Positions 40,614 through 58,943 of a stretch of DNA of 64,000 nucleotides are shown piece after piece. Location: contig JABAQU010000002.1 of assembly GCA_019187185.1 (NCBI GenBank), positions 297,248 to 361,247 of the forward strand. Direction: 5' to 3'. The notes below the pieces were generated by a model. The model ran no database searches, was not told the DNA's origin, and was given only the letters and a program-made list of their open reading frames with translations. Source of the DNA: Steroidobacteraceae bacterium (GTDB taxonomy: Bacteria > Pseudomonadota > Gammaproteobacteria > Steroidobacterales > Steroidobacteraceae). Numbering within the stretch: the stretch's first letter is position 1; each line of letters begins with the position of its first letter. The position numbers and the translations under genes were made by a program.

Positions 40614-41477
40614 ATGTCCCCCGCCGCGTTCGTGCTCCGCCTCACCTGTGCCAATCGCCCCGGCATCGTCGCCGCCGCGTCGAACCTGCTGTACGAGACC
40701 GGCTGCAACATCCTCGATGCGCAGCAGTTCGACGACACGCAGTCCGATCTCTTTTTCTCGCGGATCGTGTTCAACCGCGTCGGCGAGGGGCCGGACCTCG
40801 CGGCGATCCGCACGCGCTTCGCGCCGGTGGGCGAGCACTTCGCGATGACCTGGTCGATCGACGACCTGGCGCGGCGCCAGCGCGTGCTGCTCCTCGCCTC
40901 GACGCACGATCATTGCCTCGCCGACCTTCTCTACCGCTGGCGGACCGGCGAGCTCGCGATGGACCTCGCCGGCATCGCCGCGAACCATCCGCGCGAAACC
41001 TACCGCCACCTGAACTTCGACGACGTGCCGTTCCACTACCTGCCGGTGAGCCGCGACAGCAAGCCGCAGCAGGAAGCGCAGATCCGCGCACTGGTGCGGG
41101 ACGGCGCCGTCGATCTCGTCGTGCTCGCGCGCTACATGCAGATCCTCTCGGACGAGTTCGCGCGCGAGCTCGCCGGGCGCTGCATCAACATCCACCACAG
41201 CTTCCTGCCGGGCTTCAAGGGTGCCCGCCCCTATCACCAGGCGCATGCGCGCGGCGTCAAGGTGATCGGCGCGACCGCGCACTACGTCACGGCCGACCTC
41301 GACGAAGGTCCGATCATCGAGCAGGACGTCGAGCGCGTCACCCACCGCGACGACCCGGACGATCTCGCGCGGCGCGGCCGCGACATCGAGCGGCGCGTGC
41401 TCGCGCGCGCGGTGCGCGCGCACCTCGAGCACCGCATCATCGTGACGGGGCGGCGTACGATCGTATTTCCGGAGTAG
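40614..41477 (+). CDS. purU: Formyltetrahydrofolate deformylase
   Basis: Hydrolyses 10-formyl-tetrahydrofolate to formate and THF, balancing one-carbon pools. The 287-residue protein has an N-terminal ACT domain ([32 protein letters not shown]) and a C-terminal formyltransferase fold with [25 protein letters not shown] and [19 protein letters not shown], including the catalytic His and Asp. The 3' end overlaps the convergent hydrolase gene by 41 bp. Confidence 0.96.
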
Positions 41478-42984
41478 CGTCGAGCAGGAAGCGCGGGCGC
41501 GTCGGGGTCGCGAGACACGGCGCGGACGCCTGCAGCGTGTCGATGAACGCGACAGCGAGCTGCGTCTGGCAGGCGGCGAAATCGCTCAGTGTCGAGTGGC
41601 CGCTGTCGCCGATGACGACGAGGGTCGAGTTCGGCAGGTCGGCGGCAACCTCGCGCGCATAAAGGGCGGGCGTCATCGGGTCGAACTGCCCTGACAGCAA
41701 CAGGGCCGGCACGCCGGAGTGCACGGGCGGGGCGCGCACCGGTGGATCCCCGACCAACCCCGCGCAGGCGCTCGCCATGAACGAGACGATCGAGAATCCG
41801 CCGAATGCGGGATCGGCTGGCGCCATGGGACGAGGCGCCTCCGCCGTGTATTGATCGCGGCACACGAATGCAAAGAACGCCGGCGACGGACCGGGCGCGG
41901 CGTTGCGTGGCGCCGGGTAGATGCGGTCCATCACGTAGCTGAGGACGCGCAGATCACCGTGCTGCGTGCGATCGATGAGCAGCGGCACGAGCCGCAGCGT
42001 CTGCGCGTTGTACAGCATCCAGTGGATCGCACCGAGAAAGTCGTGCCAGTTCACGGCGAGCGGGACCTCCCCTTCTCCACCCGGGCCCGCGACCACGACA
42101 GTCCGCGGCTTTCTACGCAGTTCCTCGATCACGCGAAGCAACTCGCCGCGCAGATCGGGGAAGGCGGCCTTGCAGTCGGCATCGGCCGCGCAGCTGTCGA
42201 GCACGCGGTCGAGGCCGAGCGAAAAATTGCGTGGCCCCTCACTCAGGAACAGGTCGCTCTGCGGCGAAACGATCGAATCCAGGATGAGGCTGCGGATGCC
42301 CGGCGCATCGATGCGCGCCGCCTCGAGCGCGACCAGGGTTCCGTACGACACCGCGAGAATGTTCCAGCGCCCGACGCCGAGCGCCTCGCGCAGATCGCGC
42401 AGATCCGCCGCGGCCGCCGCCGCGCCGTATGCGGACAGATTGCGCCCCGAGTTCGCGACCTCCCGCAGGCACCGGCCTGCCATCTCTGCCACGCGCGCAT
42501 CTCGAGCCGCAAGATCGACGTCGGCCGCGATCACCGTCGCCGCATTGCCGGTCAGCGCCGCGCAGCGCAGCGGCGGCTCCGTCTGGGCCGAGCCCCGCTG
42601 GTTGAAGAGAATGATGTCGCGGCTCGCCGCGAATGGATGGCCCGCGAACCGCTCGATCGTCCGGCCGGACTCGAGCGGGGCGGCCCCCGGCCCGCCGTGG
42701 AGGAACACCACCGGATCGTCGTGCAGTCCCGGCTCGGCCGCGCGGATGCGGACGACCGGCAGACGCAATCGCGGGCCGGCCTCGACGCCCCGCGTCTCTG
42801 GCACCTCGAGGTAACCACAGGTCAGCCGCTCGGCCGCAACGCTCCCGGTCGGAAAGGGACAGGGAGAGACGATGTCAAAGCGCGCGGCTGCGTGCGCACC
42901 CGCTGCTGCCGGGGCGGCCCGGCCGACGCTCATCGCACCGAGTGCGATGAGCGTCAACCGCAGGGCCGTCACGCCCCGGCGCAT
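41437..42984 (-). CDS. Secreted alpha/beta hydrolase (S33 / TAP-like peptidase family)
   Basis: A 515-residue protein with a signal peptide (about 1-28, ending [10 protein letters not shown]), oxyanion region [26 protein letters not shown], nucleophile elbow [13 protein letters not shown] (Ser in A-x-S-x-G, first glycine replaced by alanine), acid in [13 protein letters not shown] and histidine in [11 protein letters not shown], a TAP-like C-terminal end. Family members are aminopeptidases or esterases. It begins 7 bp after the TonB receptor stop and is probably cotranscribed with it. Confidence 0.85.
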
Positions 42985-42991
42985 GCTGCCG

Positions 42992-45232
42992 TCAGAACTT
43001 GTACGACAGGATCGCGCCGACCGTGCGCGGCTGGATCACGCTCGCCGTGGCGCGAATGAACCCCACGGCCGGCCGGGCGGTGCCGCTCGAGTAGCCGTAT
43101 TCGTCGAAGAGGTTCGTCGCGTAGAACGACACACCGAAATTGCCGCGCTCGAGTGCGACGTGCAGATCGGTGATCACGTTGCTGTCAATGACGAAGTTGT
43201 AGATCAGCGGCGTGATCGTCGCGCCGTTGGCGCCCGTACCGCCCTCGAAGCCCGTGTCCTGGCTGTCGGTGTAGCGCATGCCGAGGCCGATCGACGCCCT
43301 CGTGCCGCTCGCCAGCGTGAATGACCGCTCGCCGCGCACGGCCCAGGTCCACTGTGGGATACCCGGCAGGTTTTCGCCGCCCCGCGCACCGAATGCCGAC
43401 GTCTCGTCGTCGTCGAGCGTGCTGTGCGTGTAGGCGAGGCTCGCGGTCACCTTGAAGTCGTTGGCCGTCGCATACCCGAGCGCGCCTTCGAACCCGTACG
43501 CGGTGACGTCGCTGTTGGCATTGCCGCCGGTCATTGCGCCGTTGACGTAGATGCGCGCCTGCAGGTTCTCCCACTTGAGCCACCAGGCCGCCACGTCGTA
43601 GGTGAGACGGCCGTCGCCGACATAACCCTTGGCGCCCGCTTCGTAGCTCCACAGCGTGTCGGACTCGACCATCACGGGCGCCACGTTGTTGCCGTTGACG
43701 TCGCGCAGCGGCAGGTTGGCGGCCGCCGGGCGATAGCCGCTCGCGGCCCGCGCGTAGAACGACAGCGAGTCCTTCGGGCGGTAGCGCGCCGAGAAGCTGT
43801 ACGTGTCGACGGTGTCGTCGACATTGGTGGGCGGCGTGTCGCCGACCAGGATCTCCGGGCCGTCGTCGATCGCGATCGATGCCTTGACCTTGGCGACGCG
43901 CACGCCGGCCGTGACGTCGAACTGCGGCGTCACGTAGTACGTGAGATTGCCGAAGCCGGCGGTCTCCTTGAGTTCGGACGGAATGTTGACGTCGAGCAGC
44001 ACGAAGTTGGTCGGCAGGCCCGCGAGACGCTGGCCGTTGCCGCTCTCCTCCTTCGAGTAGATGGCGCCGATGCTCCAGTCGAAATTGCCGGCGGCGCGCG
44101 GCTTCTCCCGCGACACGAGGCGGATTTCCTGCACGAACCGATCGGTCGTCGTGGTGCCCGTGAACGGCGCGTTGTCGACGGTGCAGCCGCAGAACAGCGC
44201 CACCAGCGGGCCGAAATCGGCGACCAGGTCCGTCGTCGAGGTGACAGTGCGCTCCTGGTTGCTGGTCGATGAAATCAGGTTCGCGAAATCGAACTCGTAA
44301 TTCAGCGTGCCCGCGATCAGCGAGAACTTGCTCTCGTCGAGCGAGTACGCCGTGTCGGTATCGAAGGGGCCGTTCGCCGGCACGAACGGCGGGCCATCGA
44401 GCGCGACGGTGTTGCGGCCGTGGAAGGTGGTCTTGTCGTGCAGGCCGAGCAGCGAGGCGCTGAAGCGGTCCGTGATGTTCCCGGCGAGCTTCGCCATGCC
44501 GCCGTAGTTCTCGTAGCCGTTGACGTTCTTGGCGGCGCCGGTCGCGGATTCCGGAATGCGGTCGATGAACCCGCCGACATCCTCGTAGTAACCGGACAGG
44601 CTGACGCCGAAGCGGTCGGCGACGATCGGCGCCATGACACGGCCCGTGTAACGCTGGCTCGAGTTCCCGTGGTCGATGGCCGACATGTCGACGCTCGCCG
44701 ATCCGGAGAGTTCGGCCTTCGTCGGGTCCGGCGTCACGTAGCGGATGAGGCCGCCCATCGAGGAGGCGCCGTACAGCGTGCCCTGGGGACCCTTGATCAG
44801 TTCGATCCGCTCCATGCCGGCCTTCATCACGTCGAGCATCAACTCCGCGCCGGATGCCGACCCGTTGCCCGAGCCGATCGGCACGTCGTCGATGTACACA
44901 CCCACCGTGGGCGCCGACGTGAAGGTCGACACGCCGCGCATCGTGATGCCGTTGTCGATCGGCGCGCTGCCGCCGCGGAAGTACACGCCGGGCGTGTAGT
45001 TCACGACGTCTTCCAGCGTCGTGAGGCCGCCAACGGCGAGGGTCTGCGGGTCGACCGTCGCTACCGCGAGCGCGGTGTCCTGCAAGGTCTCGTTGCGGCG
45101 CGAGGCCGTCACGATCACTTCATCGATCGGCGCAGCAGCCGCTTCCGCTGCGCTCGCCACCGCCGTGCCGAACCCCGGCGCCGCGAGCACCACGCCCGCG
45201 ACCACCCATGCCCTTCTTGAAAACGCTCCCAC
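42992..45232 (-). CDS. TonB-dependent outer-membrane receptor
   Basis: A 746-residue receptor: signal peptide (about 1-30), TonB-box-like PIDEVIVTASRR, plug domain (TLEDVVNYTPGVYFRGG...GITMRGVST...VYIDDVPIG...MERIELIKGPQGTLYGASSMGGLIRYVT) and a 22-strand-type barrel ending AILSYKF. GTG 45232 is chosen: AGGAG lies 8 nt upstream and the signal peptide fits; the frame continues upstream without protein-like sequence. It resembles the catabolic or siderophore receptors of Caulobacter/Xanthomonas type. The substrate is unknown, but the sugar genes upstream suggest an oligosaccharide. Confidence 0.9.
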   Translation of the reverse strand: MGAFSRRAWVVAGVVLAAPGFGTAVASAAEAAAAPIDEVIVTASRRNETLQDTALAVATVDPQTLAVGGLTTLEDVVNYTPGVYFRGGSAPIDNGITMRGVSTFTSAPTVGVYIDDVPIGSGNGSASGAELMLDVMKAGMERIELIKGPQGTLYGASSMGGLIRYVTPDPTKAELSGSASVDMSAIDHGNSSQRYTGRVMAPIVADRFGVSLSGYYEDVGGFIDRIPESATGAAKNVNGYENYGGMAKLAGNITDRFSASLLGLHDKTTFHGRNTVALDGPPFVPANGPFDTDTAYSLDESKFSLIAGTLNYEFDFANLISSTSNQERTVTSTTDLVADFGPLVALFCGCTVDNAPFTGTTTTDRFVQEIRLVSREKPRAAGNFDWSIGAIYSKEESGNGQRLAGLPTNFVLLDVNIPSELKETAGFGNLTYYVTPQFDVTAGVRVAKVKASIAIDDGPEILVGDTPPTNVDDTVDTYSFSARYRPKDSLSFYARAASGYRPAAANLPLRDVNGNNVAPVMVESDTLWSYEAGAKGYVGDGRLTYDVAAWWLKWENLQARIYVNGAMTGGNANSDVTAYGFEGALGYATANDFKVTASLAYTHSTLDDDETSAFGARGGENLPGIPQWTWAVRGERSFTLASGTRASIGLGMRYTDSQDTGFEGGTGANGATITPLIYNFVIDSNVITDLHVALERGNFGVSFYATNLFDEYGYSSGTARPAVGFIRATASVIQPRTVGAILSYKF

Positions 45233-45277
45233 GAGATTTTCTCCTATTGGTGAGATTTCGCCGCTTTTTTCTAATCT

Positions 45278-45322
45278 GAGAATTTCTCGGCGCAGAAATA
45301 TCATATCGGCAGGATTTGTCAA
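45278..45322 (-). promoter_or_regulatory. Promoter and possible operator of the TonB receptor gene
   Basis: On the minus strand a perfect -35 TTGACA (45322-45317) is followed after 16 bp by a weak -10, TATTTC (45300-45295). Just downstream, near the expected start of transcription, lies the palindrome GAGAA-T-TTCTC (45278-45288). This 109-bp AT-rich gap is the only sizeable break in the run of minus-strand genes from 56967 to 41437. Confidence 0.45.
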
Positions 45323-45341
45323 CCGTCGATTCACCGTTGCT

Positions 45342-46274
45342 TCAGCGCAACGAGCCCGCCAGCACATCGGCGAAGAACCGCGCGACCCGCCGTCGCGCCC
45401 GTACCGCTTCCGGCAGCCCCGGCGTCACGGCCTGGAAGGAATGGTGCAGCCCCTCGTAGATGTCGAGCCGCACCGGGCAGCCCGCGTCGTCGAGGCGGCG
45501 GTACAGCCGCACGGAGTCCGACAGCAGGATCTCGCGCGTGCCGCACTGGATCAGGGTCGGCGGAAAGCCGGCGTCGTAACGGCCGTGGACCGGCGAGACC
45601 TCGGGATCGCCGTGGCGCTCCAATGGTGCATAGGCGAGCGCCGCGTGCTCGAGGTTGCCGGGGTAGCGGAGGATGGGATCGGCCTCCGCCAGCCAGCGGT
45701 GGCTCGCCCCCTCGCCTGCGAGGTCGCACCAGGGCGACCACAGGGCCAACGCACGTGGCCGCTGGGCGTCGTGCAGCGCGAGCGTGGCCGAGAGCGCGAG
45801 CCCACCGCCCGCGGAATCGCCGACCAGCAGCACCTCGTCGGCAGCGGCCGTCAGCGAGGCCAGCGTGCGGGCCACCTGCGCGATCGTCGCGTCGCACCGG
45901 GATCGCGGCGCGCGCGGATAGTCGATCGACCAGAGTTCGAGCCCGAGGTCGTGCGCGAGCGGCACGGAGGCGAACAGGCTCGAACGCGCGGAGAAGAGCG
46001 TGTACCCGCCGCCGTGCAGGAAGACGATCCGGGGTCCGTCCGGCGGGGCACTCGCGGGCGTGACGACTTCCACGTCGAGCCCGGCCACCTGTTCCGTGCG
46101 CAGCCGCGGGCCGTAGCGTTCGAGCGTGCGCGCATTGGCGGCGGCCACGGCGGCCTCCTGCCGCTCGAACAGCGCATCCCAGGCGGCCTGATCGTCGGGC
46201 CGCGGAATGCTCTCGGGATGCCCTGCCCTCGCCTCCAGCGCGGCGATCGCCGTCGCGGCTTCGGTCGAGAGCAT
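45342..46274 (-). CDS. Alpha/beta hydrolase, hormone-sensitive-lipase-like esterase
   Basis: A 310-residue cytoplasmic esterase with FLHGGGYTLFS (oxyanion HGGG), GDSAGGGLALSATLA (nucleophile serine), an acid in the RRLDDAGCPVRLDIYEGLHHSF region and the catalytic histidine in GLHHSF. No signal peptide. ATG 46274 starts 17 bp after the kinase stop. In this setting it could remove acyl groups from imported sugars, but that is a guess. Confidence 0.85.
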   Translation of the reverse strand: MLSTEAATAIAALEARAGHPESIPRPDDQAAWDALFERQEAAVAAANARTLERYGPRLRTEQVAGLDVEVVTPASAPPDGPRIVFLHGGGYTLFSARSSLFASVPLAHDLGLELWSIDYPRAPRSRCDATIAQVARTLASLTAAADEVLLVGDSAGGGLALSATLALHDAQRPRALALWSPWCDLAGEGASHRWLAEADPILRYPGNLEHAALAYAPLERHGDPEVSPVHGRYDAGFPPTLIQCGTREILLSDSVRLYRRLDDAGCPVRLDIYEGLHHSFQAVTPGLPEAVRARRRVARFFADVLAGSLR

Positions 46275-46291
46275 CGTGGCGGCGCGCGCGT

Positions 46292-47782
46292 TCAGGCGAC
46301 GGACCTCAGCGCGGGATAGAGCGCGCAGTAGCGTTCGTAGTACTCGCGGTAGGCGGCGTGCGTGCGCGCATCGGGCTCGACGACTCGCGCGACGCGCGTC
46401 ATCGCGCGCGCGGCATCGGGGATCGCGCCGAACTGCCCGGCACCGACCGCCGCGAGGATGCCGCTGCCGAGGCACGCGGCCTCGGTCGTCTGCACGAGGC
46501 GCAACGGCATGCCGAGGACGTCCGCATGGATCTGCAGCCACAGGTCGGACTTCGCGACCCCGCCGGCCACGGTGAGCCCGTCGACGACGAAGCCGCTTGC
46601 GCGCAGGGTTTCGAGGATCAGGCGCGAGCCGTACGCCACGCCTTCCATGATGGCGCGCAGCACGTGGCCCCGCTGGTGACGCAGCGTGAGTCCCGTGATC
46701 GCCCCGCGCGACGATGCATCGGTGTGCGGCGTGCGGTTGCCCTGGAAATGCTCCTGCACCAGCACGCCCTCGCTGCCGGGCGGCACGGCCGCCGCCTCCC
46801 GGTTCAGGGCGTCGTAGCCCGTGTCGCGGCCGATCAGCGAGCGGAACCAGTTGACGACCGAACCGGTGGACGTCTGTCCACCCTCGACGAGGTGCAGGCC
46901 GGGAATCACGGCGTCCGCATACGTGCCCCAGATCCCCGCGCCGTGAAAAGCCTGCGCGCTCAAGCCGAGCTGCAGGTGCGAGGAGCCGGTGACCAGCGCC
47001 ATCGCGCCCGCGTCGACCACGCCCATGCCGATCATCGCGACCGAGGCGTCCGATCCGCCCTGCACGACGAGCGTCCCGGGAGAAAGGCCCAGATGGTCGG
47101 CGGCGGCCGGAGTGAGGGGCCCGATCGGCACGCCCGGTGCGAGCACCTCCTGCGGCCACTTGCGCCCGAGCGCCTCGAGGCCGAGCACGGCGAGCAGGCT
47201 CGTGGGCCACCCGCCGTCGCGTGCACGGTAGTGCCAGCGCACCGAGAGGTTGTTCAGGCTCGCGACGCGCCGGCCCGTCAGGTGCAGGTTGAGATAATCC
47301 TGGTACTCGCAGATCGTCGCCGCCGCCTCGAACGTGCGCGGCTCGTGGGCGGAAAGCCACGCGGCCTTCGGCAGCATCCATTCGGCCGACACCGGGCCAC
47401 GACCGCCGCTGTTGATCGCGAGCGCCGCGTCCTTGCTCGCCGCCACGCGCTGCGCCTCGGCCTGCGAGCGCACGTCCATCCAGATCAGCGCGGGGCGCAG
47501 CGCCTCGCCCTGCCCATCCAGCGCGACCACCGAGCAGCACGTCGTATCGACCGCGAGCGCGATGATGTCGCGCGCCGCGACGCCCGACGCCTGCACCGCC
47601 TGGCGCACCGATCGCCCGAGGGCCTGCCACCAGTCCCGCGGCTGCTGCTCGGCCCAGCCCGGTTGCGGAAACGCCGTCTCGTACCCGGTCGTCTCGAACG
47701 CGAGCGGCGTGCCGTGAAGATCAAACACGCCCGCACGCAGGCCTTCGGTCCCGCCATCGACGCCGATCACGCAGCGTGGCAT
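46292..47782 (-). CDS. FGGY-family carbohydrate kinase
   Basis: A 496-residue ASKHA sugar kinase: IGVDGGTEGLRAGVFD (phosphate-1), AVDTTCCSVVALDGQG, RPALIWMDVRSQAEA, GGSDASVAMIGMG, and the adenosine motif TVAGGVAKSDLWLQI. Xylulokinase, ribulokinase and fuculokinase all share this fold. Placed one base after a fucose/D-arabinose-type isomerase, it should phosphorylate that enzyme's ketose product, D-ribulose or L-fuculose. No aldolase gene for fuculose phosphate is nearby, which favours ribulose. Confidence 0.86.
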   Translation of the reverse strand: MPRCVIGVDGGTEGLRAGVFDLHGTPLAFETTGYETAFPQPGWAEQQPRDWWQALGRSVRQAVQASGVAARDIIALAVDTTCCSVVALDGQGEALRPALIWMDVRSQAEAQRVAASKDAALAINSGGRGPVSAEWMLPKAAWLSAHEPRTFEAAATICEYQDYLNLHLTGRRVASLNNLSVRWHYRARDGGWPTSLLAVLGLEALGRKWPQEVLAPGVPIGPLTPAAADHLGLSPGTLVVQGGSDASVAMIGMGVVDAGAMALVTGSSHLQLGLSAQAFHGAGIWGTYADAVIPGLHLVEGGQTSTGSVVNWFRSLIGRDTGYDALNREAAAVPPGSEGVLVQEHFQGNRTPHTDASSRGAITGLTLRHQRGHVLRAIMEGVAYGSRLILETLRASGFVVDGLTVAGGVAKSDLWLQIHADVLGMPLRLVQTTEAACLGSGILAAVGAGQFGAIPDAARAMTRVARVVEPDARTHAAYREYYERYCALYPALRSVA

Positions 47783-47783
47783 G

Positions 47784-49304
47784 TCAGTGCGTCTCCTCGA
47801 GCACCCGCACGCGAAAGCCGAGGCGCCGGCTGAGCTCGATCATTTCGTGGAACACGTCGCCATAGGCGACGGCGATGTGGTTGCTCCAGTAGTGCGCCAT
47901 CAGCGTGTCGCGGCCGATCCCGAGGTCGGCGATCATCAGCGGCCACTCGCGCGTCGTGCCGCGCCACCACGCATCGCGTTTCTGCGGCGGCAACGCGACG
48001 ACGCTGCCGCGGCCGATGTCCATCCAGAGTTCCCCGCCGCGCAGATAGGCGCGCGACCATGTGACATCCCCCGGCAGGCTCTCGCCCGCGAACGTGCCGC
48101 CCGGCACCGGGAAGTAGGTCGACGGCTGGCGATACGAGTGCACGCCGCGCAGCGAATCCGGATCGTGGTTGAAGGCGTACGCGCCGCTCGAGCCCGAGTT
48201 CAGCAGCACCCAGAGGAACCGCCCCTCGTGCTCGCCGCCCCAGCGGATGTCGTGGAAGAACACGGCCTGGTGCAGGCCCTTCGCCTTCAGCAGCCGCTTC
48301 ATCATCTCCATCGGCAGCACGTTGCCCTGGTCGGCTTCCGTCGCGTCGACGATCGTGTCGCCGTTCGATTCCGGTCGGCAGGTCGAATTGAACAGGCCCT
48401 CCGCGAAATCCGACGGCGCGCGCGAGCGGATGAGTCCGAGCTGGTACTGCCAGCCGATGCAGTCCGCGCGAAACTCGGCGACGAGATCGAGCACGGCGAG
48501 GTAGTCGCGCAGCTGCTCGCGGGTCGCGTTCACGTCGTAGTCGTGGGCGCCCTCGATGCCGTAATGGAAGGTCACGCCGCGGTCGCGCACGAACGCGAGC
48601 GCGTCGTCGATGCGCCGCTCGTCGATGTCCTTGCCACGCTCGATGATCCAGGCCTGGTCGACCTTGTGTTCCGCAAAGCCGACGCGGTTCAGCCAGCGCG
48701 GGCCGAGATACCCGTTGATCATGCCCATCGAGGTATCGCCGAGCATCAGCACGAGCGCGCGGCGCCGGTGGAACTCCTCGTGCACCCGGCCCGCCAGCGC
48801 CGCCGCGGCGGCCGGTGTCGCGGGTGGCTCGCGCAGCGCATGCACCGGATAGCGCACCTCACCGTTCGCGCACCACGCGGCGAGGTGTTCCATGAACGCC
48901 TCGTCCTGGCTCCAGTCGGCGGCGTCGGTCCACACGCGACTCGCAGCGCGATCGACGCTCTCGAGGCACGCCGCCGTGTTCAGCAGACCGACGAGACCCG
49001 GCCAGGTACCGGAGAAATTGCTCGCGAGCAGCAGCGGCGAGTCCTTGCCGACGACGCCGTCGGTCGTGTGTGGCCCATACACCCAATGCGCGTAGACACC
49101 AATCAGCGGCTCGTCGATCGGCCCGAGCCGTTCGATCGCCTCGTGTGGCTTCGTCAGCAGCCCCTCCACGCGCCGGTGGCGACGCCCGAGCCGATCGAGG
49201 GCGCGTTCGAGCTGGCGCGTCGATTCCTCGACGAGCGGCAGGGCGAGTTCGTTCGGGCGCGGGCGATAGTCGCCGGGCCAGAAGAGGTGGATCGTGTCGG
49301 ACAT
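47784..49304 (-). CDS. L-fucose/D-arabinose isomerase family protein
   Basis: A 506-residue protein that aligns block by block with E. coli FucI (591): ALVLMLGDTSMGMING...KVDQAWIIERGKDID with FucI's SMG and MTEL region. The catalytic acids are kept as E323 (VDATEAD) and D352 (FFHDIR), and H476 (WSNHIA) matches the third metal ligand. These manganese enzymes interconvert L-fucose/L-fuculose and D-arabinose/D-ribulose. It is shorter than FucI, so it forms a divergent subfamily. GGGAG precedes ATG 49304. It lies between the GH172 gene and the kinase. Confidence 0.8.
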   Translation of the reverse strand: MSDTIHLFWPGDYRPRPNELALPLVEESTRQLERALDRLGRRHRRVEGLLTKPHEAIERLGPIDEPLIGVYAHWVYGPHTTDGVVGKDSPLLLASNFSGTWPGLVGLLNTAACLESVDRAASRVWTDAADWSQDEAFMEHLAAWCANGEVRYPVHALREPPATPAAAAALAGRVHEEFHRRRALVLMLGDTSMGMINGYLGPRWLNRVGFAEHKVDQAWIIERGKDIDERRIDDALAFVRDRGVTFHYGIEGAHDYDVNATREQLRDYLAVLDLVAEFRADCIGWQYQLGLIRSRAPSDFAEGLFNSTCRPESNGDTIVDATEADQGNVLPMEMMKRLLKAKGLHQAVFFHDIRWGGEHEGRFLWVLLNSGSSGAYAFNHDPDSLRGVHSYRQPSTYFPVPGGTFAGESLPGDVTWSRAYLRGGELWMDIGRGSVVALPPQKRDAWWRGTTREWPLMIADLGIGRDTLMAHYWSNHIAVAYGDVFHEMIELSRRLGFRVRVLEETH

Positions 49305-49340
49305 GATCGTCTCCCGTGCGCTGAAGCGTGTGCGGCCGGC

Positions 49341-50414
49341 TCAGGTCGCCGGCGCGGGCGGCAGGTCCCGCAGGCGCTGCGCGGCATCCGGGATGGCCGG
49401 CAGCGGGTCGGAGGGCGTCGCCTGGTACCAGAAAGTGGCGCAGGACCAGTCGTCCTGCCGTTCGTACAACTCGGCCATGTAGTCGGCGATCGAGCGCGCA
49501 TTGCCGGTGGGCGAATGCCCGATCTGCTGGATCGACACCCGCATCTGCCGCTCGCAGAGCAGCGGGTCGGCCATGTGCCAGCGATAGATCGAGACCGCGC
49601 CGGTCTTCGTCGCGTCGTCGTGCTCGCGCCAGTTGGCGCCGTGGTAGAGGAAGGCGTTCGCCTGTATGCCCCAGGAGAGACCCACGTAGTCCTCGGTGCC
49701 GGTGCCGACGATCGTGGCGTGCCGGTCGTCGCCGTCGATCCATGCCTTCATTTCGCCCTCGCCCCACCAGCGCGGATCGAGCGGCCGCACGCCGATGACG
49801 CTGCCGAGGAAACGGATGCGGCCGCGCCGCAGGGGCAGCAGATCGAAGTCGCGGCCGATGGTCGTCGGGTTCTCGCGGCGAAACAGCACGTGCAGCCGGC
49901 CGACATCGTCGGCATGCGCATCGCCGAGCGTGTAGTCGACCTGGTAGAAGAACGGCAGGCGCAGCGGCGCCTCGTTGCACAGTTCGATGCGTGCACGACG
50001 CAGGAACGGCATCGGCAGCCAGATGTTCATGCCGAGCGCGCCGCCGACCGAATGCGCGCAGCTCTGGAACGCGCCCGTGCGTCCGTGCGCGAAGCCGAAG
50101 AAGTCGCCGAGCGGCGCTTCGACGCTCGGGTGCGACTGGTCGTCCCAGAAAATGCGCACGAGGCAACCGCGCAGCATTTCGGGCTGCGCATGCGTCGTGG
50201 CCCAGATATGGCGGATCGTGCCGGGCCCGGCGATGTTTGCGAGTTCGATCGTTTCCCCGGGATGCACATGGCGCACGGCCGAGCCCTTGCGGCCCGGCCC
50301 GAGCGGGCTCGCGGCCTGTCCGCCCGCGCCGGGTGCGCCGGTCGGGTTCTCGAAGCTGATCGAGCGCGTGACGAGCTTCACGCCGAGGTCGTAGGGCTGC
50401 AGGGGCGAGGTCAT
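49341..50414 (-). CDS. GH172 (DUF2961) family glycoside hydrolase
   Basis: A 357-residue protein with the DUF2961 double jelly-roll signatures: IAGPGTIRHIWATT (about 61-74), APLGDFFGFAHG, WWGEGEMKAWID (216-227) and GTGTEDYVGLSWG (237-249). The family's two catalytic carboxylates are expected in the last two motifs (E219/E221 and E241). Known GH172 enzymes are the difructose-dianhydride-I-forming alpha-D-fructofuranosidases and exo-D-arabinofuranosidases. No signal peptide, so it acts in the cytoplasm. ATG overlaps the M28 stop by 4 bp. Confidence 0.87.
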   Translation of the reverse strand: MTSPLQPYDLGVKLVTRSISFENPTGAPGAGGQAASPLGPGRKGSAVRHVHPGETIELANIAGPGTIRHIWATTHAQPEMLRGCLVRIFWDDQSHPSVEAPLGDFFGFAHGRTGAFQSCAHSVGGALGMNIWLPMPFLRRARIELCNEAPLRLPFFYQVDYTLGDAHADDVGRLHVLFRRENPTTIGRDFDLLPLRRGRIRFLGSVIGVRPLDPRWWGEGEMKAWIDGDDRHATIVGTGTEDYVGLSWGIQANAFLYHGANWREHDDATKTGAVSIYRWHMADPLLCERQMRVSIQQIGHSPTGNARSIADYMAELYERQDDWSCATFWYQATPSDPLPAIPDAAQRLRDLPPAPAT

Positions 50415-52696
50415 GTCTTCTCCGTCGCGAGGGAAAGGTGATGGAGCACGATCGACTGGTTGCCCGCGTGCAGCGGCGCCGCATCCGCGGGGCGCCTCGC
50501 CAGCATCGCGTCGCCTTCGCGATCAGCCATCAGCGGACCGATGTCGAATGCGACGACCGACAGCGCTGCGCGCGGCGTCGCGATGAGCTCGAAGGCGACC
50601 GGATCGCCGCCCACGCCATGCACGCCCACGATGCGCGGTGCGTCGTCGGCGCCGGCCAAGACCGGCTGGCCCTCGATGCGCAGGCCGAGCACCGGCGAGT
50701 GCGCGGCGAAGGCGAGACCGAGCTGGAAGGTCGGGCGCCGGCTCTGCACGCGGCCGCGCACGATCCGCTGCCCGTCGCGCTCGAAATCCTCGTCGATCTC
50801 GACGACCGGCGTCGCCAGCGCCCGATCGGTCGCGGGCTTCAGGTACACGTCGGTCGGCGCGACACCGAGCCGCAGCACCGGTCGCTTCACGGCATCGAAG
50901 CCCATCGCATCGAGCAGCGCACGGCCCGGCTCGCCAAACGACTGGATCTGCCATTGCGCAGAGGCGTGGGCGTCGTCCTGCACGTACAGCAGGTTCACGC
51001 CGCGCGGACGATCGACCGTGTGCGTCGGCACCGCCATGGCCACCGCCGCCGCGCCGACGACGAGGGCCGACCCTGCGCCGATCAGCGCCCGCGATCCGTG
51101 GCGCTGCACGTGCGCGAGCGCGATCGGCAGCAGAGGCAGCGTCAGCAACAGCAGCGGGATCACCTTCGCCTGCGCGACATCGAAGTTGAACATCACGTCG
51201 AGCTGCAGGAAGTGGTAGAGCGCCAGATACGAGGCCGCGACGAACGCGGCCGGCGCGGCCACCCAGGTCAGGTTGTGTCCGGATCGCATGGCGAACGCCT
51301 CGATCACGGCGAGCACGCCGTAGACGAGCAGCGGCACGATAAACACGAAGCTTGCGCCGGGCACCGTGAGCGACACGGCGAGCGCGAGCAGGCCCATGAC
51401 CACCCAGACGACGCTCGACATGGCGCCCACCGTGACGCGCCTGGCGAGCAGGGCGACCACCACGAGCGGCGCGAGGACGGACGCGGCGATCAACGCGATG
51501 CGCCCCGGCCAGGGATGCGGATGATCGAGCGGATGCACACCCGGCCATTTGCCGAGCGGCCACGACAGCAGCCAGCCGAACGACACGACCAGCACGATGA
51601 GCAGTGCGAGAGCCGCGAGCGATCCCGCGATCGAACGCCCGTCGGCGCGGGGCACGTGGCGCAGGCTGGCCAGCAGCACGAGCAACAGCCCGAGTCCCGC
51701 GAGCGGCGCATTCCATGCGGCGGGCCAGCGCGGCAGGACCCGGCCGCCGATGTCGAAGTATGTCGCATCGCCCGCAGCGGCCAGGTCCCCGACAGGCGTG
51801 TCGGCGATGCGCAGCAAGGTCGCGAACACGCTCTCGCCCTGGTGCTGCAGCGAGCGCCGATCGAGGTGCGCGAGATCGTCGCGTTCGGAATGGTAGAGCG
51901 CCGCGCCGCGCGAGAATGCGAAGTTGAGGCCGCTCGCGCCGCGCCGCTTGTAGATCGTGAAGTCGGTGTTGTTCGGCATGTGCCGATAGACTTCGTACAG
52001 CAGCGAGTTCGCGACCGGTCGCGGCACTGCGCGCGCGTAGGCCGCGACGAGCGCCCGATTGTCCGCGCCGGTCTCGAACATCATGCCGGGCCCGGTCACG
52101 CCGCGCGCCTCCATGTTCAGCACGAAGGCGACCCGTCGCATCAGCGGGTGGGCATCGGCGAACAGCATCGCGCCGCGCAGGCCCGTCTCCTCGGCATCGG
52201 CGAAGAGGAAGACGACGTCGTGCAGCAGCGGTCCCCGCGCGGCGATCAGTTCGGCGATCTCGAGCATCGCGGCGACGCCGGCGCCGTCGTCGGCCGCCGC
52301 AACGGAACCGGGCACGCTGTCGTAATGCGCGGTGACCAGCACTGCCTCGCGCGCGTCGCGACCCTCGCGCACGGCGATGATGTTCCGGACGACACTGCAG
52401 CCCGGTGCGAGCGTCGAGCACTTGAACCCTTGCTGGATTTCCGGCTGGTAACCGGCCGCACGCAGCCTCGCCACGATGCGATCGGCGATCACGCGATTCG
52501 CCGCGCTGCCCGCGGGATGGGGCACGTTGTCCTCGAGCAGCGACCCGAGAATCTCGAACGCCCGGTCGCCCGAGAAACCCTGCCGGTTCGTCGCCGCAAC
52601 CCCGGCGTCGGGCGCACGGTCCTGGACGCGCAGTACGGCGAGCAGGGCCGCGATCACGACGACCAGCATCACCGGCCCACGCCAGCGCCGGATCAT
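50411..52696 (-). CDS. Membrane-anchored M28-family metallopeptidase
   Basis: A 761-residue protein: N-terminal membrane anchor (VMLVVVIAALLAVL), then an M28 zinc peptidase domain (about 40-320) with ligands in TAHYDSVPGS (His), AADDGAGV (Asp), FADAEETGL (Glu-Glu), a further acid in FVLNMEARG and a histidine in YHSERDDLAHLD. About eight more membrane helices and a C-terminal beta-rich luminal domain follow. This is the layout of Fxna/ERMP1-type M28 peptidases. It would cleave peptides on the periplasmic face. It overlaps dctQ and the GH172 gene by 4 bp each. Confidence 0.88.
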   Translation of the reverse strand: MIRRWRGPVMLVVVIAALLAVLRVQDRAPDAGVAATNRQGFSGDRAFEILGSLLEDNVPHPAGSAANRVIADRIVARLRAAGYQPEIQQGFKCSTLAPGCSVVRNIIAVREGRDAREAVLVTAHYDSVPGSVAAADDGAGVAAMLEIAELIAARGPLLHDVVFLFADAEETGLRGAMLFADAHPLMRRVAFVLNMEARGVTGPGMMFETGADNRALVAAYARAVPRPVANSLLYEVYRHMPNNTDFTIYKRRGASGLNFAFSRGAALYHSERDDLAHLDRRSLQHQGESVFATLLRIADTPVGDLAAAGDATYFDIGGRVLPRWPAAWNAPLAGLGLLLVLLASLRHVPRADGRSIAGSLAALALLIVLVVSFGWLLSWPLGKWPGVHPLDHPHPWPGRIALIAASVLAPLVVVALLARRVTVGAMSSVVWVVMGLLALAVSLTVPGASFVFIVPLLVYGVLAVIEAFAMRSGHNLTWVAAPAAFVAASYLALYHFLQLDVMFNFDVAQAKVIPLLLLTLPLLPIALAHVQRHGSRALIGAGSALVVGAAAVAMAVPTHTVDRPRGVNLLYVQDDAHASAQWQIQSFGEPGRALLDAMGFDAVKRPVLRLGVAPTDVYLKPATDRALATPVVEIDEDFERDGQRIVRGRVQSRRPTFQLGLAFAAHSPVLGLRIEGQPVLAGADDAPRIVGVHGVGGDPVAFELIATPRAALSVVAFDIGPLMADREGDAMLARRPADAAPLHAGNQSIVLHHLSLATEKT

Positions 52697-53202
52697 CGCG
52701 GCGCGCCCTGCTGCACGAAGTCGCGTAGCGCCCTCGCCCAGCGCGCCGCGAGGTGCACGACGATGATGACGAAGCTCGCCGGTATGATCACGACGACCGC
52801 GGCGCTGTTCCATTCCAGCGTCTCGGTGATGCGATGCGAATGTCGTTCGAGGAATCCCGGGGCGTAGTAGAAGACCGGCGCCGCGAGCGTGAGGACTGCG
52901 ACCGCCTCGATCGACTGCATGAAGAGCGTGCGGCCCGGGAGCCCCCGTGTATCGAACTTCATCATCACGGGATCGGCACCGCGGTAGTAGGCCATGGCCG
53001 CACCCGCCATGGCCGACCAGATCATCGCGTAGCGGGCGAGTTCCTCGGTCCAGGCGGGCGGCGCGTGGAAAACGTACCGTGCCACGATCTGCAGCAACAC
53101 CGACAGCAGCATGACGTGCAGCGCGACGAAGGCGATGACGGTGCACAGCCGGTCGAGCGCGCGCGACAGTGCACGAAGCCCCCGGTCGATGGCGACGATC
53201 AC
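52693..53202 (-). CDS. TRAP transporter small membrane subunit (DctQ type)
   Basis: A 169-residue protein with four membrane helices (LCTVIAFVALHVMLLSVLLQIVARYVF, YAMIWSAMAGAAMAYYRGA, SIEAVAVLTLAAPVFYYAP, AAVVVIIPASFVIIVVHLAARW) and the family's WTEELARY motif after helix 1. GTG 53202 overlaps the dctP stop (GTGA). The long open frame upstream is antisense-like sequence within dctP in another frame. Confidence 0.88.
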   Translation of the reverse strand: MIVAIDRGLRALSRALDRLCTVIAFVALHVMLLSVLLQIVARYVFHAPPAWTEELARYAMIWSAMAGAAMAYYRGADPVMMKFDTRGLPGRTLFMQSIEAVAVLTLAAPVFYYAPGFLERHSHRITETLEWNSAAVVVIIPASFVIIVVHLAARWARALRDFVQQGAPR

Positions 53203-54215
53203 GGCGCCGCTCCCGTGCTGCGCGGATCGCGCGTGGCGTCGATCATTGCTTTCAGACGTGCCTCGGCCGCGGGGCTTTCCCAGCGGGTCCGCTTCATCCG
53301 GCGGGTCAGTGCACGCCATTCGTCGCGCGCCGCCGGATCGATGTCGAGCCACTTGATGCCGGTCTTTTCGAGCATGGCCCGCTCGCGCGGAATCGCGGCG
53401 CGTGTCCACGCGCGATTGGCGGCGCGCGCCTCGCGCACTCCGGCGTCGAATGCAGCGCGGTCCCGCGGTTCGAGATGCTCGTACCAGCGGCGCGACGCGA
53501 CGATGCAACGCGCCGAGGGACCCATGCGCAGGTCGGTAAAGTAGTCGAGGACATTGCCGTGGCCGAACATCACCGCGACGATCGGCGGATTGAGGTAGGC
53601 GTCGACCATGCCGGTCTGCAGGGCCTGGGCCACCTCTTCCCAGGCCACCCGCACGCCGTGCACCTGCCAGGCGTCGAGCAGGTTGAGATCGCCCGCGCTG
53701 ATGATGCGCAAGCGCAGGCTGCGCAGGTCCTCGATGCGGTACACCGGCTTGCCGCGCGTGAACAGGCCGACCATCGCCCCGGTATAGGCGAAGTCGAGCA
53801 GCACGAGGTCGTCGTCGGCCAGTTCCTCGTTCACCTCGGCGAGGAAGCGCGTGTCCTCGATCAGGCGATTCATGTGCTCGTACGATTCGATTTCGAACGG
53901 GCGCATGGCGTGGAACAGCGGCGAGAGGCGCGCGAGTTCGTCGCCGCCGGTCTCATTGACCTCGAGCAGGCCGATCGCGACCTGGTCCATGCGCTCCTTC
54001 TCGCCGCCGAGCGCACTGTTCGGGTACACCTTCACGTGCATGTCCGCGCGGCCGAGGGCATCGGCAAGGGCTTTCACCCAGACATACGATCCATTGCGCT
54101 TTGCATCGATCGGGGTCGACATCCCGATCTTCACCTCGCGCGGGTCCGTCGCGCGCGCGACGGACGGTCCCATCGCCGTGCCGAGCAGTGCCCAGGCGAG
54201 ATCGCGACGGCGCAT
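53199..54215 (-). CDS. TRAP transporter substrate-binding protein (DctP type)
   Basis: A 338-residue periplasmic binding protein: signal (MRRRDLAWALLGTAMGPSVARA, with a twin-arginine-like RRRDLAW), then VKIGMSTPID, VYPNSALGGEKERMDQVAIG, GLFTRGKPVYRIEDLRSLRLRI (carboxylate-binding arginine region) and EEVAQALQTGMVDAYLNPP. TRAP systems mostly import carboxylates, using the sodium gradient. The ligand is unknown. It is coupled to the dctM stop by a TGATG overlap. Confidence 0.9.
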   Translation of the reverse strand: MRRRDLAWALLGTAMGPSVARATDPREVKIGMSTPIDAKRNGSYVWVKALADALGRADMHVKVYPNSALGGEKERMDQVAIGLLEVNETGGDELARLSPLFHAMRPFEIESYEHMNRLIEDTRFLAEVNEELADDDLVLLDFAYTGAMVGLFTRGKPVYRIEDLRSLRLRIISAGDLNLLDAWQVHGVRVAWEEVAQALQTGMVDAYLNPPIVAVMFGHGNVLDYFTDLRMGPSARCIVASRRWYEHLEPRDRAAFDAGVREARAANRAWTRAAIPRERAMLEKTGIKWLDIDPAARDEWRALTRRMKRTRWESPAAEARLKAMIDATRDPRSTGAAP

Positions 54216-55498
54216 CACAGCAGCCCCAGCCAGCGCGGCAGCGCGAGCGACAGCTCGGGGAACAGCACGACGAGCAGCAGCACCGCGAGCTCGGCGAGCA
54301 CGAACGGCATGATGCGCCGGCACAGCGCCCAGTAGCCCTGGCCGGTAATCGACGCCACCATCATGATGGCGCCGCCCAGCGGCGGGGTGATGAGCCCGAG
54401 CGTGAGGTTGAGGCACACCATCATGCCGAGCGCGACCGGGTGCACGCCCTGCTCGATCGCGACCGGGACGAGCAGCGGCGCAACCAGCGTCAACGAAATG
54501 ATGGTGTCGACACCCATGCCGAGTGCGAGGAAGACCGCCATCAGCAGCAACAGGTACCAGATACCCGTCAGCCCGAACGATTGCACGAAGGCAGCGACGT
54601 GGTCGCCGAACTGGCTGAGCGCGACGAGATAAGTCACGAGGGCACCAGCGGCGAGGAAAATGAAGATCACGCCGCTCAGCACGACCGTCCGCTGTACCGA
54701 CTCGACGAATTCCGCGCGCGTCAGTTCGCGGGACCACACGCCGAACACGGCCGAGGCCGCAACGGCCACGGCGCCGGCTTCGATCGGCGTCATCACGCCG
54801 AACACGATGCCGCCGAGGATCACGGCCGGCAGCGTGAGCGCGGGCAGCGCCTTGCGCAGGGTCGGGCGCCATTCGGGAATGTCCGCCGCCGTGCCGCCGG
54901 GGTGCCCTTCGCGCCGCGCGATCCAGGCGTTCATCGCCATCAGTGCAGCGGCGATCATCAGCCCCGGAATGAGGCCCGCCGCGAACAGCGCCGCGACGTC
55001 GGTCGACAGGATCGCGCCGTACAGGATGAAGATGATCGACGGCGGCACGATCGGGCCGATCACCGACGCCGCCGCGGTCAACGCGCCTGCGTAGAGCGGA
55101 TCGTAGCCGCGCTTCTCCATCTGTCCGACAAACGTATTGGTGAGCGCGGCAATGTCGGCCGCCGCCGAGCCGCTGATCCCGGAGAAGAACACGGACGTGA
55201 GCACGTTCGCGTGGCCCAGCCCGCCGCGGATGCGCCCGACGAGCAGCAGCGACAGGTCGATGAGTGCGCGCGTGATGCCGCTGCGGTTCATCAGCTCGCC
55301 GGCCCAGATGAACAGCGGCATCGCCATGATCGCGAACACGTCCATCTGGCTGAACATGCGCTGCGGCACGATGGCGAGGTACTCGGGACGGCCCACGACG
55401 AAGAACGCAACGACGGCCGCCGCACCGATCACGTAGGCGAGCGCGACGCCGCAGAGCAGCAGTACCGCAACGACACCGATGATGATGGCGGCGCTCAT
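54215..55498 (-). CDS. TRAP transporter large membrane subunit (DctM type)
   Basis: A 427-residue protein with about 12 membrane helices. Family motifs are MPLFIWAGELMNRSGI, GHANVLTSVFFSGISGSAAADIAALTN, ASVIGPIVPPSIIFILYG, MTPIEAGAVAV and NLTLGLITPPLGG. It forms the sodium-driven import channel with DctQ and DctP. ATG 55498 lies 8 bp after the M81 stop. Confidence 0.93.
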   Translation of the reverse strand: MSAAIIIGVVAVLLLCGVALAYVIGAAAVVAFFVVGRPEYLAIVPQRMFSQMDVFAIMAMPLFIWAGELMNRSGITRALIDLSLLLVGRIRGGLGHANVLTSVFFSGISGSAAADIAALTNTFVGQMEKRGYDPLYAGALTAAASVIGPIVPPSIIFILYGAILSTDVAALFAAGLIPGLMIAAALMAMNAWIARREGHPGGTAADIPEWRPTLRKALPALTLPAVILGGIVFGVMTPIEAGAVAVAASAVFGVWSRELTRAEFVESVQRTVVLSGVIFIFLAAGALVTYLVALSQFGDHVAAFVQSFGLTGIWYLLLLMAVFLALGMGVDTIISLTLVAPLLVPVAIEQGVHPVALGMMVCLNLTLGLITPPLGGAIMMVASITGQGYWALCRRIMPFVLAELAVLLLVVLFPELSLALPRWLGLL

Positions 55499-55506
55499 CG
55501 CGGTGC

Positions 55507-58308: not shown

Positions 58309-58943
58309 CCCGGGCTCGTCATGATATTGAGCACGCGCGCCGGCTTGTTGCCGATCGCGCGCAGGTTGTGGGCCATCGAGGAATCGATATAGATGCTCTC
58401 ACCAACCCGCAGCACGGTCGGCTCGTAGAACTCGCTGATGAATTCAACCGTGCCCTGCAACACGTAGATGAACTCCTCGCCCTGGTGACGAATGAGCTCG
58501 GGTGTATGGCCCGCCTTCACTTCGAGCACCGACGGCTGCAGCTTGCGGCGCAGGAAATCGCTGGCGTGATGCTCGTAGACGGACTTGTCGGTTTCGACCC
58601 GGCGCGCCTGTCCCTTGAGGGTGAGGCTGCGCCGACCCGTCACGACCGCGCCGGACTCGCGCGCCGTCGCCGCGCCGTCGCCCGCCGCCACGAGCTGCAT
58701 GACGTCGACCCCGAGCGCAGCACACACCTTGAGGAGCTTTTCGATGTTGAGCGAAATGCCGCCGGTCTCGACCTTCGACAGGGTCGACAGCGGAATCTGC
58801 GTCGCCTCGCTCAATCGCTTCAGCGTCCAGTGTCGCGCACGACGCAGCTCGCGGATGCGCGCGCCGATCGCCGAGGGCTGGGCCCGTGTCATGTCCGCGG
58901 CGCTGGGCGCCCCGGCGGGAGTCTGGGTGCGGCTCTGGATCAT
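58275..58943 (-). CDS. XRE-family regulator with C-terminal cupin domain
   Basis: A 222-residue protein: an N-terminal helix-turn-helix (IGARIRELRRARHWTLKRLSEATQIPLSTLSKVETG, about residues 25-65) and a C-terminal cupin (LIRHQGEEFIYVLQGTVEFI...VLRVGESIYIDSSMAHNLRAIG). This class usually senses a small ligand of the catabolic genes beside it, often polyamine or amino-acid pathways. It lies between the DadA-like gene and the serine hydrolase and probably controls both, along with the M81-TRAP operon. Confidence 0.9.
   Translation of the reverse strand: MIQSRTQTPAGAPSAADMTRAQPSAIGARIRELRRARHWTLKRLSEATQIPLSTLSKVETGGISLNIEKLLKVCAALGVDVMQLVAAGDGAATARESGAVVTGRRSLTLKGQARRVETDKSVYEHHASDFLRRKLQPSVLEVKAGHTPELIRHQGEEFIYVLQGTVEFISEFYEPTVLRVGESIYIDSSMAHNLRAIGNKPARVLNIMTSPGHEAHLKRRGE

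Follow-up and report, generated by a model that had tools for sequence, protein, structure and literature searches.

A four-gene core within a larger gene block

Which sugar is served by a gene cluster of a Steroidobacteraceae bacterium that combines a GH172 hydrolase, a FucI-fold isomerase, an FGGY kinase and an esterase? The window analysed here is a 64,000-nt stretch of contig JABAQU010000002.1 (297,248-361,247) of this bacterium, and all coordinates below are positions within it. The initial annotation had described the cluster as four adjacent minus-strand genes, and Pfam domains were found for all four in their places, listed here together with the neighbouring genes:

41437..42984, minus strand, alpha/beta hydrolase, TAP/proline-iminopeptidase-like (PF00561, PF08386)
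42992..45304 (putative start), minus strand, TonB-dependent receptor (Plug domain, scanned as 42992-45367)
45342..46274, minus strand, HSL-type alpha/beta hydrolase (esterase) (PF07859 122.5 bits, scanned as 45342-46247)
46292..47782, minus strand, FGGY kinase, predicted D-ribulokinase (PF00370 (FGGY_N) 130.2 bits, PF02782 (FGGY_C) 135.7 bits)
47784..49304, minus strand, FucI-fold aldose isomerase, predicted D-arabinose isomerase (PF02952 Fucose_iso_C 51.1 bits, cut-off 29.3)
49341..50414, minus strand, GH172 (DUF2961) hydrolase, predicted exo-acting alpha-D-arabinofuranosidase (PF11175 211.7 bits, cut-off 27)
50411..52696, minus strand, M28 peptidase, hydrophobic N-terminus (PF04389 151.8 bits, scanned as 50411-52702)
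52693..53202, minus strand, TRAP small permease DctQ (PF04290 71.6 bits, scanned as 52693-53190)
53199..54215 (putative start, from translation), minus strand, TRAP substrate-binding protein DctP (PF03480 123.6 bits, scanned as 53199-54236)
54215..55498, minus strand, TRAP large permease DctM (PF06808 316.7 bits; TIGR00786 343.7 bits, cut-off 268.45; scanned as 54215-55516)
55507..56967, minus strand, M81 metallopeptidase (MlrC-like) (PF07364 264.2 bits, PF07171 188 bits)
57034..58308, plus strand, DAO-family FAD enzyme, D-amino acid dehydrogenase type (NF001933 400.8 bits, cut-off 383)
58275..58943, minus strand, XRE-cupin regulator (HTH_3 42.7 bits, Cupin_2 62.4 bits)
59004..60965, plus strand, beta-lactamase-fold serine hydrolase (PF00144 193.6 bits)

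The details of the core agree with that description. The GH172 protein, called cytoplasmic, has no hydrophobic N-terminus, a single nucleotide (47783) separates the isomerase and kinase genes, and the PF07859 match bears out the HSL-type assignment of the esterase. The extent of the cassette needs revision, as its upstream continuation on the same strand had been overlooked. Specifically, the stop codon of the M28 peptidase gene overlaps the start codon of the GH172 gene (ATGA), and TRAP and MlrC (M81) genes lie further upstream. Together with the genes for an M81 peptidase, a TRAP transporter and an M28 peptidase, the four genes make up a larger block, of which they form the core.

The GH172 protein resembles an exo-alpha-D-arabinofuranosidase

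The predicted model of the GH172 protein (pLDDT 89.3) adopts, as expected, the double jelly-roll fold of solved members, and its structure matches are topped by 8ic8, 7v1v, 8ah3 and 4kq7 (TMq 0.74-0.85). The closest is 8ic8, an exo-alpha-D-arabinofuranosidase (33-34% identity, TMq 0.83-0.85), and the difructose enzyme alphaFFase1 is 26% identical. The catalytic pair E219/E241, corresponding to alphaFFase1 E270/E291, is invariant in a 38-row alignment, and the −1 subsite residues W216, E219, E241, D242 and W248 agree with alphaFFase1. The position of alphaFFase1 Y187 is occupied by F156; in the available excerpt of PMC8605356, the Y187F variant of alphaFFase1 retains 90.3% activity on pNP-alpha-D-Araf. 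The protein is predicted to be an exo-acting alpha-D-arabinofuranosidase. A PHROGs search returned no match for it, and an NCBIfam scan assigned no name to it or to the isomerase.

The residue at position 249 bears on whether fructose could also be accepted. In the available excerpt of PMC10509167, Asn253 of ExoMA1 is the fructose-blocking residue, and Gly at that position makes room for fructose. This Asn was not found in the GH172 protein, which instead carries Gly249, equivalent to alphaFFase1 Gly299; the position is Gly in 36 of the 38 aligned rows. Because of Gly249, a fructofuranosyl group would have room in the active site, and the residue gives no selection of arabinose over fructose. 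The fructan-type alternative raised earlier keeps some probability, and GH172 might act on an alpha-D-fructofuranoside or another ketofuranoside while the isomerase and kinase serve a different sugar. We consider this improbable: fructose needs neither an aldose isomerase nor a pentulokinase, the closest solved relative is an arabinofuranosidase, and of the alphaFFase1 +1 residues, Lys147, which is needed for inulobiose (PMC8605356, excerpt), aligns with a gap and Glu85 falls outside the aligned blocks.

A divergent isomerase is paired with an atypical kinase

A single-sequence PDB search with the isomerase gave no match at E 0.1, and profile and fold comparison were therefore used. D-arabinose isomerase 3a9r ranks first in the profile search (E 1.3e-5), and the predicted model shows the expected FucI fold, with a FucI-type C-terminal domain, matching FucI/D-arabinose isomerase only from about residue 162 onward. 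Identity to FucI-type structures is 21-22% over this aligned part, and the whole chain gives TMq 0.55-0.58. The N-terminal domain PF07881 was not found at E 0.001, and it is precomputed in two of 120 isomerase homologues among those listed. E323, D352 and H476, which had been reported as kept, are invariant in a 42-row alignment; in E. coli FucI (1FUI) the corresponding residues are E337, D361 and H528, which we take to be its metal ligands. Scored relatives of the family number more than two thousand, and neither these nor the single-sequence PDB search yielded a solved member.

The FucI fold would also fit catabolism of L-fucose or an L-fucofuranoside via fuculose 1-phosphate. Aldolase_II (PF00596) has no match in this genome, rated 100% complete, whereas 12 of 14 controls were positive. 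The initial annotation had noted no fuculose-phosphate aldolase nearby and had named an L-fucose pair with an aldolase elsewhere as the finding that would speak against it; none was seen in the neighbourhood or genome-wide. The fuculose-phosphate route fails because the genome lacks a class II aldolase match, and we reject L-fucose as very improbable.

The window FGGY kinase, predicted from sequence to be a D-ribulokinase, has 3gg4 as its best solved match and scores below all NCBIfam cut-offs (XylB 295.2/380.25, AraB 278.9/428, TIGR01315 250.2/408.7). With XylB as its top score, the kinase might be xylulokinase-like and serve, with the isomerase, a different aldose, for instance one that yields D-xylulose. 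This seems unlikely to us, as XylB stays below its cut-off with AraB and TIGR01315 close behind, the kinase of locus L016 scores best against AraB, and the one usual partner kinase tested (L041) is a TIGR01315 pentulose kinase (680.7 bits, cut-off 408.7). Moreover, xylose isomerases have a fold different from the FucI type.

Of 39 rows of kinases adjoining the isomerase elsewhere, 31 share the motif DATCSL, and the window-clade kinase is unlike this usual partner. The L072 genome has no relative of the window kinase at 1e-20, and the L073 and L078 genomes have relatives of only 28% and 32%, located elsewhere. A second FGGY protein in the window's own genome scores above the Pfam cut-off (64.4 bits).

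GH172 recurs beside the isomerase

We compared the best 80 of 136 confirmed isomerase loci, leaving out more distant members; genes were called with a custom script, and some loci are short. The initial annotation had proposed a check on conservation of the trio; for GH172 and the isomerase it is partial. In 16 of these 80 loci GH172 lies near the isomerase; they span at least two lineages of the isomerase, and the near-copies L004 and L005 are both counted. The remaining 64, some of them short, show none. GH116, the family of the published exo-beta-D-arabinofuranosidase, occurs in five of these best 80, and GH116 and GH172 also neighbour the isomerase in other phyla. Eight of 397 other Pseudomonadota genomes carry any GH172, and a Fisher test on GH172 near the isomerase gave odds of 12.2 (P 2.4e-8), with loci from many phyla set against Pseudomonadota genomes. 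Because of this phyla mismatch and the double counting of L004 and L005, we give weight instead to the isomerase tree and to the distribution within the genus.

On the isomerase tree, a quick tree with SH-aLRT support only, the TRAP-type block changes twice over 11 rows, both changes being forced by the starred branches; the TRAP group here includes L004 and L005, whose contigs show M28 to kinase only (the TRAP genes lie beyond the contig), and L078, whose GH172 lies outside the fetched flank. Within the genus of this bacterium, four of seven genomes have isomerase, GH172 and DctM together, and the other three lack all of them. Genome G032, of the same family and 82% complete, contains GH172 but not the isomerase, and G036 has a DctM relative at 53% with neither a GH172 nor an isomerase match. 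A search of 398 Pseudomonadota genomes found the isomerase in the window's own genome and in one other, at 37%, with a Fucose_iso_C score below the cut-off. The block is common to this gammaproteobacterium and alphaproteobacteria. A KDO reading was noted for some alphaproteobacterial isomerase loci.

A predicted route from a D-arabinofuranoside to D-ribulose 5-phosphate

Conversion of D-arabinose to D-ribulose 5-phosphate, as originally proposed, is the best-supported pathway because of the solved relatives, the usual kinase partner, the GH116/GH172 neighbours and the absence of a class II aldolase match. In the scheme that we hold slightly better than even, the TRAP transporter would import a small D-arabinofuranoside, GH172 would release D-arabinose in the cytoplasm, the FucI-fold isomerase would convert it to D-ribulose, and the FGGY kinase would phosphorylate this, presumably at position 5. 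The D-ribulose 5-phosphate would feed the pentose phosphate pathway, and a ribulose-phosphate 3-epimerase is encoded in the genome.

Several companion genes recur. The M28 peptidase occurs in eight of the best 80 of 136 isomerase loci, the esterase as family F18 in L002, L007, L016 and L062, and the TonB-dependent receptor, a possible outer-membrane uptake component, as F13 in L002, L003, L007, L062, L072 and L078. The order of the TAP/proline-iminopeptidase-like hydrolase is kept in L002, L003 and L007, and the DAO-family gene adjoins the block in L003, L007, L016 and L062. Locus L062, which has the same block, belongs to Pseudokordiimonas caeni, a relative in culture. The XRE-cupin protein, found again in L003, L007, L045, L062, L072, L073 and L078, likely regulates the block, and the beta-lactamase-fold hydrolase, whose family adjoins the isomerase also in L073 and L078, is a possible accessory. 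A simple sugar route has no use for the M28, M81, DadA-type and beta-lactamase-fold genes. TRAP transporters usually carry acids, and a plain arabinoside, contrary to this usual cargo, is not an acid.

A more tentative proposal, possible but on the doubtful side, is that the TRAP transporter imports an acid- or peptide-bearing D-arabinofuranoside, that its acid or peptide part is removed by the M81/M28 peptidases and the esterase, and that the fructose-permissive GH172, the isomerase, from an uncharacterised and widely conserved family, and the divergent kinase lead to D-ribulose 5-phosphate. If true, it would imply a common environmental D-arabinose-containing metabolite, previously undescribed, with a previously undescribed uptake route.

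Full scavenging of D-arabinan from actinobacterial walls, with the polymer cut outside by other enzymes and the cassette finishing the fragments, had also been suggested and is unlikely. D-arabinan cleavage by GH172 family members is in print (PMC10115798, PMC10509167; excerpts), a TonB receptor stands in the block, the D-amino-acid and peptidase genes could handle cell-wall peptides, and in the genome of L016, which carries the same block, DUF4185 matches above the cut-off with neighbours in frame. Against this, DUF4185/GH183 has no match in the window's own genome, in a search whose controls were silent. The model gave matches in four of 24 other genomes (three above the cut-off). Eight of the genomes sampled carry the block, or as much of it as can be seen, and of these seven gave no DUF4185 match and one did. 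Furthermore, GH116 is absent among the annotated neighbours of the block, and the transporter is of the TRAP type rather than an oligosaccharide ABC system. Polymer use is weakened because no GH183 was found, because transport is of the TRAP type and because Gly249 takes the position of the fructose-excluding Asn of ExoMA1.

Import of a small D-arabinofuranoside, our preferred reading, has a wider bearing. D-arabinose is regarded mainly as a mycobacterial wall sugar. The all-or-none pattern of the block in one genus, its sharing with alphaproteobacteria and the large isomerase family in which no solved member was found suggest that D-arabinosides are perhaps commoner nutrients than assumed. 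The block is a concrete gene set for finding the D-arabinose-containing compound.

Comparison with known D-arabinose systems

Enterobacterial D-arabinose use combines FucI with a D-ribulokinase and is not known to involve a glycosidase or a TRAP transporter. The window block is alike in that a FucI-type isomerase would feed a ribulokinase, with 21-22% identity of the isomerase over the aligned part. DarK is named in PMC12307932 (excerpt).

In the available excerpt of PMC10509167, the D-arabinan locus of Microbacterium arabinogalactanolyticum encodes a signal-less GH172, a putative isomerase and a kinase, as in the window, and a figure legend shows D-arabinose going to D-ribulose 5-phosphate. 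Beyond these genes, that locus encodes GH183 endo-enzymes, GH116 and an ABC transporter, whereas the window block has TRAP, M81, M28, esterase and TonB receptor genes, with no GH183 found. PUL42 of Dysgonomonas gadei, a D-arabinan PUL, holds a predicted fucose isomerase; unlike the window block, it is a Bacteroidota PUL with DUF4185 (GH183) genes (PMC10115798, excerpt). AlphaFFase1 of Bifidobacterium dentium shares the GH172 family, the −1 subsite except for Tyr187/Phe156 and the fructose-permitting Gly, but differs in overall sequence, and its inulobiose +1 Lys147 falls in an alignment gap of the window protein (PMC8605356, excerpt).

The novelty claimed for a gammaproteobacterium is fair, while the combination of GH172, isomerase and kinase is already in print for Microbacterium (PMC10509167, excerpt); what is new is the TRAP- and peptidase-linked version of that scheme. 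The predicted enzyme logic resembles that of the published D-arabinan loci, and the transporter and companion genes differ in kind.

Gene organization of the block

As the initial annotation described, the window carries genes for a GH172 hydrolase, a FucI-type isomerase, an FGGY kinase and an HSL-type esterase on the minus strand at 45342-50414, with one base between isomerase and kinase. The M28 peptidase gene in front of GH172 overlaps it, stop codon on start codon. The other genes around the four-gene set are:

upstream, minus strand: complete TRAP transporter genes
upstream, minus strand: M81 (MlrC-like) peptidase gene
downstream: TonB-dependent receptor gene
downstream: alpha/beta hydrolase gene
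57034-58308, divergent beside the block: D-amino-acid-dehydrogenase-type gene, above its NCBIfam cut-off
beyond the block, strands alternating with the flanking D-amino-acid and beta-lactamase-fold genes: XRE-cupin regulator gene
59004-60965, beyond the regulator: beta-lactamase-fold hydrolase gene

Conservation of the block

The window block is a unit. Among the best 80 of 136 loci around the isomerase in other species' genomes, the entire order MlrC, DctM, DctP, DctQ, M28, GH172, isomerase, kinase recurs in four: L003, L007 and two from alphaproteobacteria, L016 (Parvularcula) and L062 (Pseudokordiimonas). The L002 contig ends within MlrC, and L004 and L005, on a 4-kb contig, reach no further than from M28 to kinase. 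In L072, L073 and L078, TRAP/MlrC genes are divergent and adjoin the isomerase, with GH172 seen in the first two. In L072 (11611-13089) and L078 (11521-13029), a sulfatase-family gene, shown to be PF00884 for L072 only, comes next after the isomerase, which has no kinase beside it. Beta-lactamase-fold hydrolases, as in the window, recur near the isomerase in L072 (9018-10004; PF13354 kind, directly upstream), L073, L078, L045, L051 and L008.

Among seven genomes of the window's genus, GH172, isomerase and DctM are each present in G000, G001, G002 and G004, and none has a match in G003, G005 or G006 (rated 89%, 100% and 78% complete). Beyond the genus, G032 carries GH172 with no match to the isomerase, and in G036 a DctM relative at 53% is accompanied by no match to either GH172 or isomerase. 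On a quick isomerase tree, the TRAP-type block (11 rows) takes 2 changes, with eight rows in one supported 11-row set (SH-aLRT) and L072, L073 and L078 elsewhere; carrying GH172 or GH116 of any kind takes 7. The association thus appears to have more than one origin.

Neighbours of the isomerase and the probable D-arabinose route

Enzymes with the FucI fold use D-arabinose and L-fucose as substrates. The window genome (rated 100% complete) has zero matches to PF00596, the fuculose-phosphate aldolase family, with 12 of 14 controls positive; the PF00596 aldolase route is therefore removed. A ribulose-phosphate epimerase is encoded.

Five of the best 80 of 136 loci, all from other phyla (L010, L020, L021, L026, L034), have GH116 close to the isomerase. 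GH116 is the family of the exo-beta-D-arabinofuranosidase of PMC10509167, and all of the five but L020 also have GH172. DUF4185 (GH183 endo-D-arabinanase) is above cut-off in the genomes of L010 and L026, gives weak matches below cut-off in that of L020 and was not found in those of L021 and L034. These neighbours and DUF4185 matches tie the isomerase family to D-arabinan degradation in other phyla.

In L017 (4059-6215), L034 (1182-3206), L067 (6815-8992) and L080 (2-1267), the isomerase has a GH172 of a longer type at a distance of one or a few genes (674-725 aa in the complete ones; DUF2961 at 259-499 in L017), accompanied in the first three by sugar-type ABC transporter genes. In the alphaproteobacterial loci L009 (4466-13160), L018 (8291-13139), L022 (4785-11515) and L041 (3664-13175), a GntR-FCD regulator gene and one for a DHDPS-family aldolase are close to the isomerase, with a TRAP transporter in all but L018. 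Pyruvate and D-arabinose are the products of KDO aldolases, so the four loci may serve to salvage KDO, an LPS sugar; alternatively, the aldolase is a 2-keto-3-deoxy-arabinonate aldolase.

An FGGY family kinase adjoins the isomerase in 37 of the best 80 of 136 loci. Of 39 kinase rows, the window's among them, 31 have D[AG]TCSL, a motif of D-ribulokinases like human FGGY, and the one member tested, from L041, is TIGR01315 (680.7 bits). The kinases of the window, L003, L007, L016 and L062 have the variant TT[CN]C[ST]; the three scored (window, L016, L062) fall under every cut-off, and divergent pentulokinase is the best name for all five. The other three rows are L029, L045 and a truncated L002. 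One further FGGY protein, above the Pfam cut-off, is encoded elsewhere in the window genome.

Substrate of the hydrolase

The nearest solved relative of the window GH172 is ExoMA1, a Microbacterium exo-alpha-D-arabinofuranosidase (8ic8; 33-34% identity, TMq 0.83-0.85), followed by Bifidobacterium dentium alphaFFase1 (7v1v) and DgGH172c (8ah3), at 26% each. Of the alphaFFase1 residues named in PMC8605356 and PMC10509167, W267, E270, E291, D292, W298 and G299 are retained, Y187 is replaced by Phe156, Lys147 is opposite a gap, and Glu85 has no aligned counterpart. PMC10509167 puts the arabinose preference of ExoMA1 down to Asn253 blocking fructose. The window enzyme has Gly249 here, and Gly occupies the position in 36 of 38 aligned GH172 rows, including L010 and L026, both near GH116; P0215 and L021 have Cys. 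With these residues kept and Gly249 instead of Asn253, the enzyme probably accepts alpha-D-arabinofuranosides and may also accept ketofuranosides. Capsid proteins of double jelly-roll viruses, e.g. PRD1, are further matches of its predicted structure (49341-50414); a kinship with phage capsids had already been suggested in PMC10115798.

Use of polymeric D-arabinan, as initially suggested, is not borne out. DUF4185 has no match in the window genome and, among eight genomes sampled because they show the block or as much of it as is visible (L003, L004, L007, L016, L062, L072, L073, L078), occurs in L016 only. Acids are the usual cargo of TRAP systems, and a simple sugar route does not account for the peptidase and D-amino-acid genes. 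We therefore favour, as natural substrate, a small D-arabinofuranoside that may bear an acidic or peptide part, over the polymer. As in the window, a gene of the D-amino acid dehydrogenase type stands beside the block in L003, L007, L016 and L062, which hints that the substrate has a D-amino-acid part.

Comparison with known systems

A cytoplasmic GH172 with an isomerase and a kinase, as in the window, is already in print for Microbacterium in PMC10509167. Two of 13 papers listed on GH172 concern D-arabinan, and none of seven papers listed for TRAP transporters mentions both these and GH172; as far as that literature goes, the TRAP-linked proteobacterial form of the GH172-isomerase-kinase set is new.
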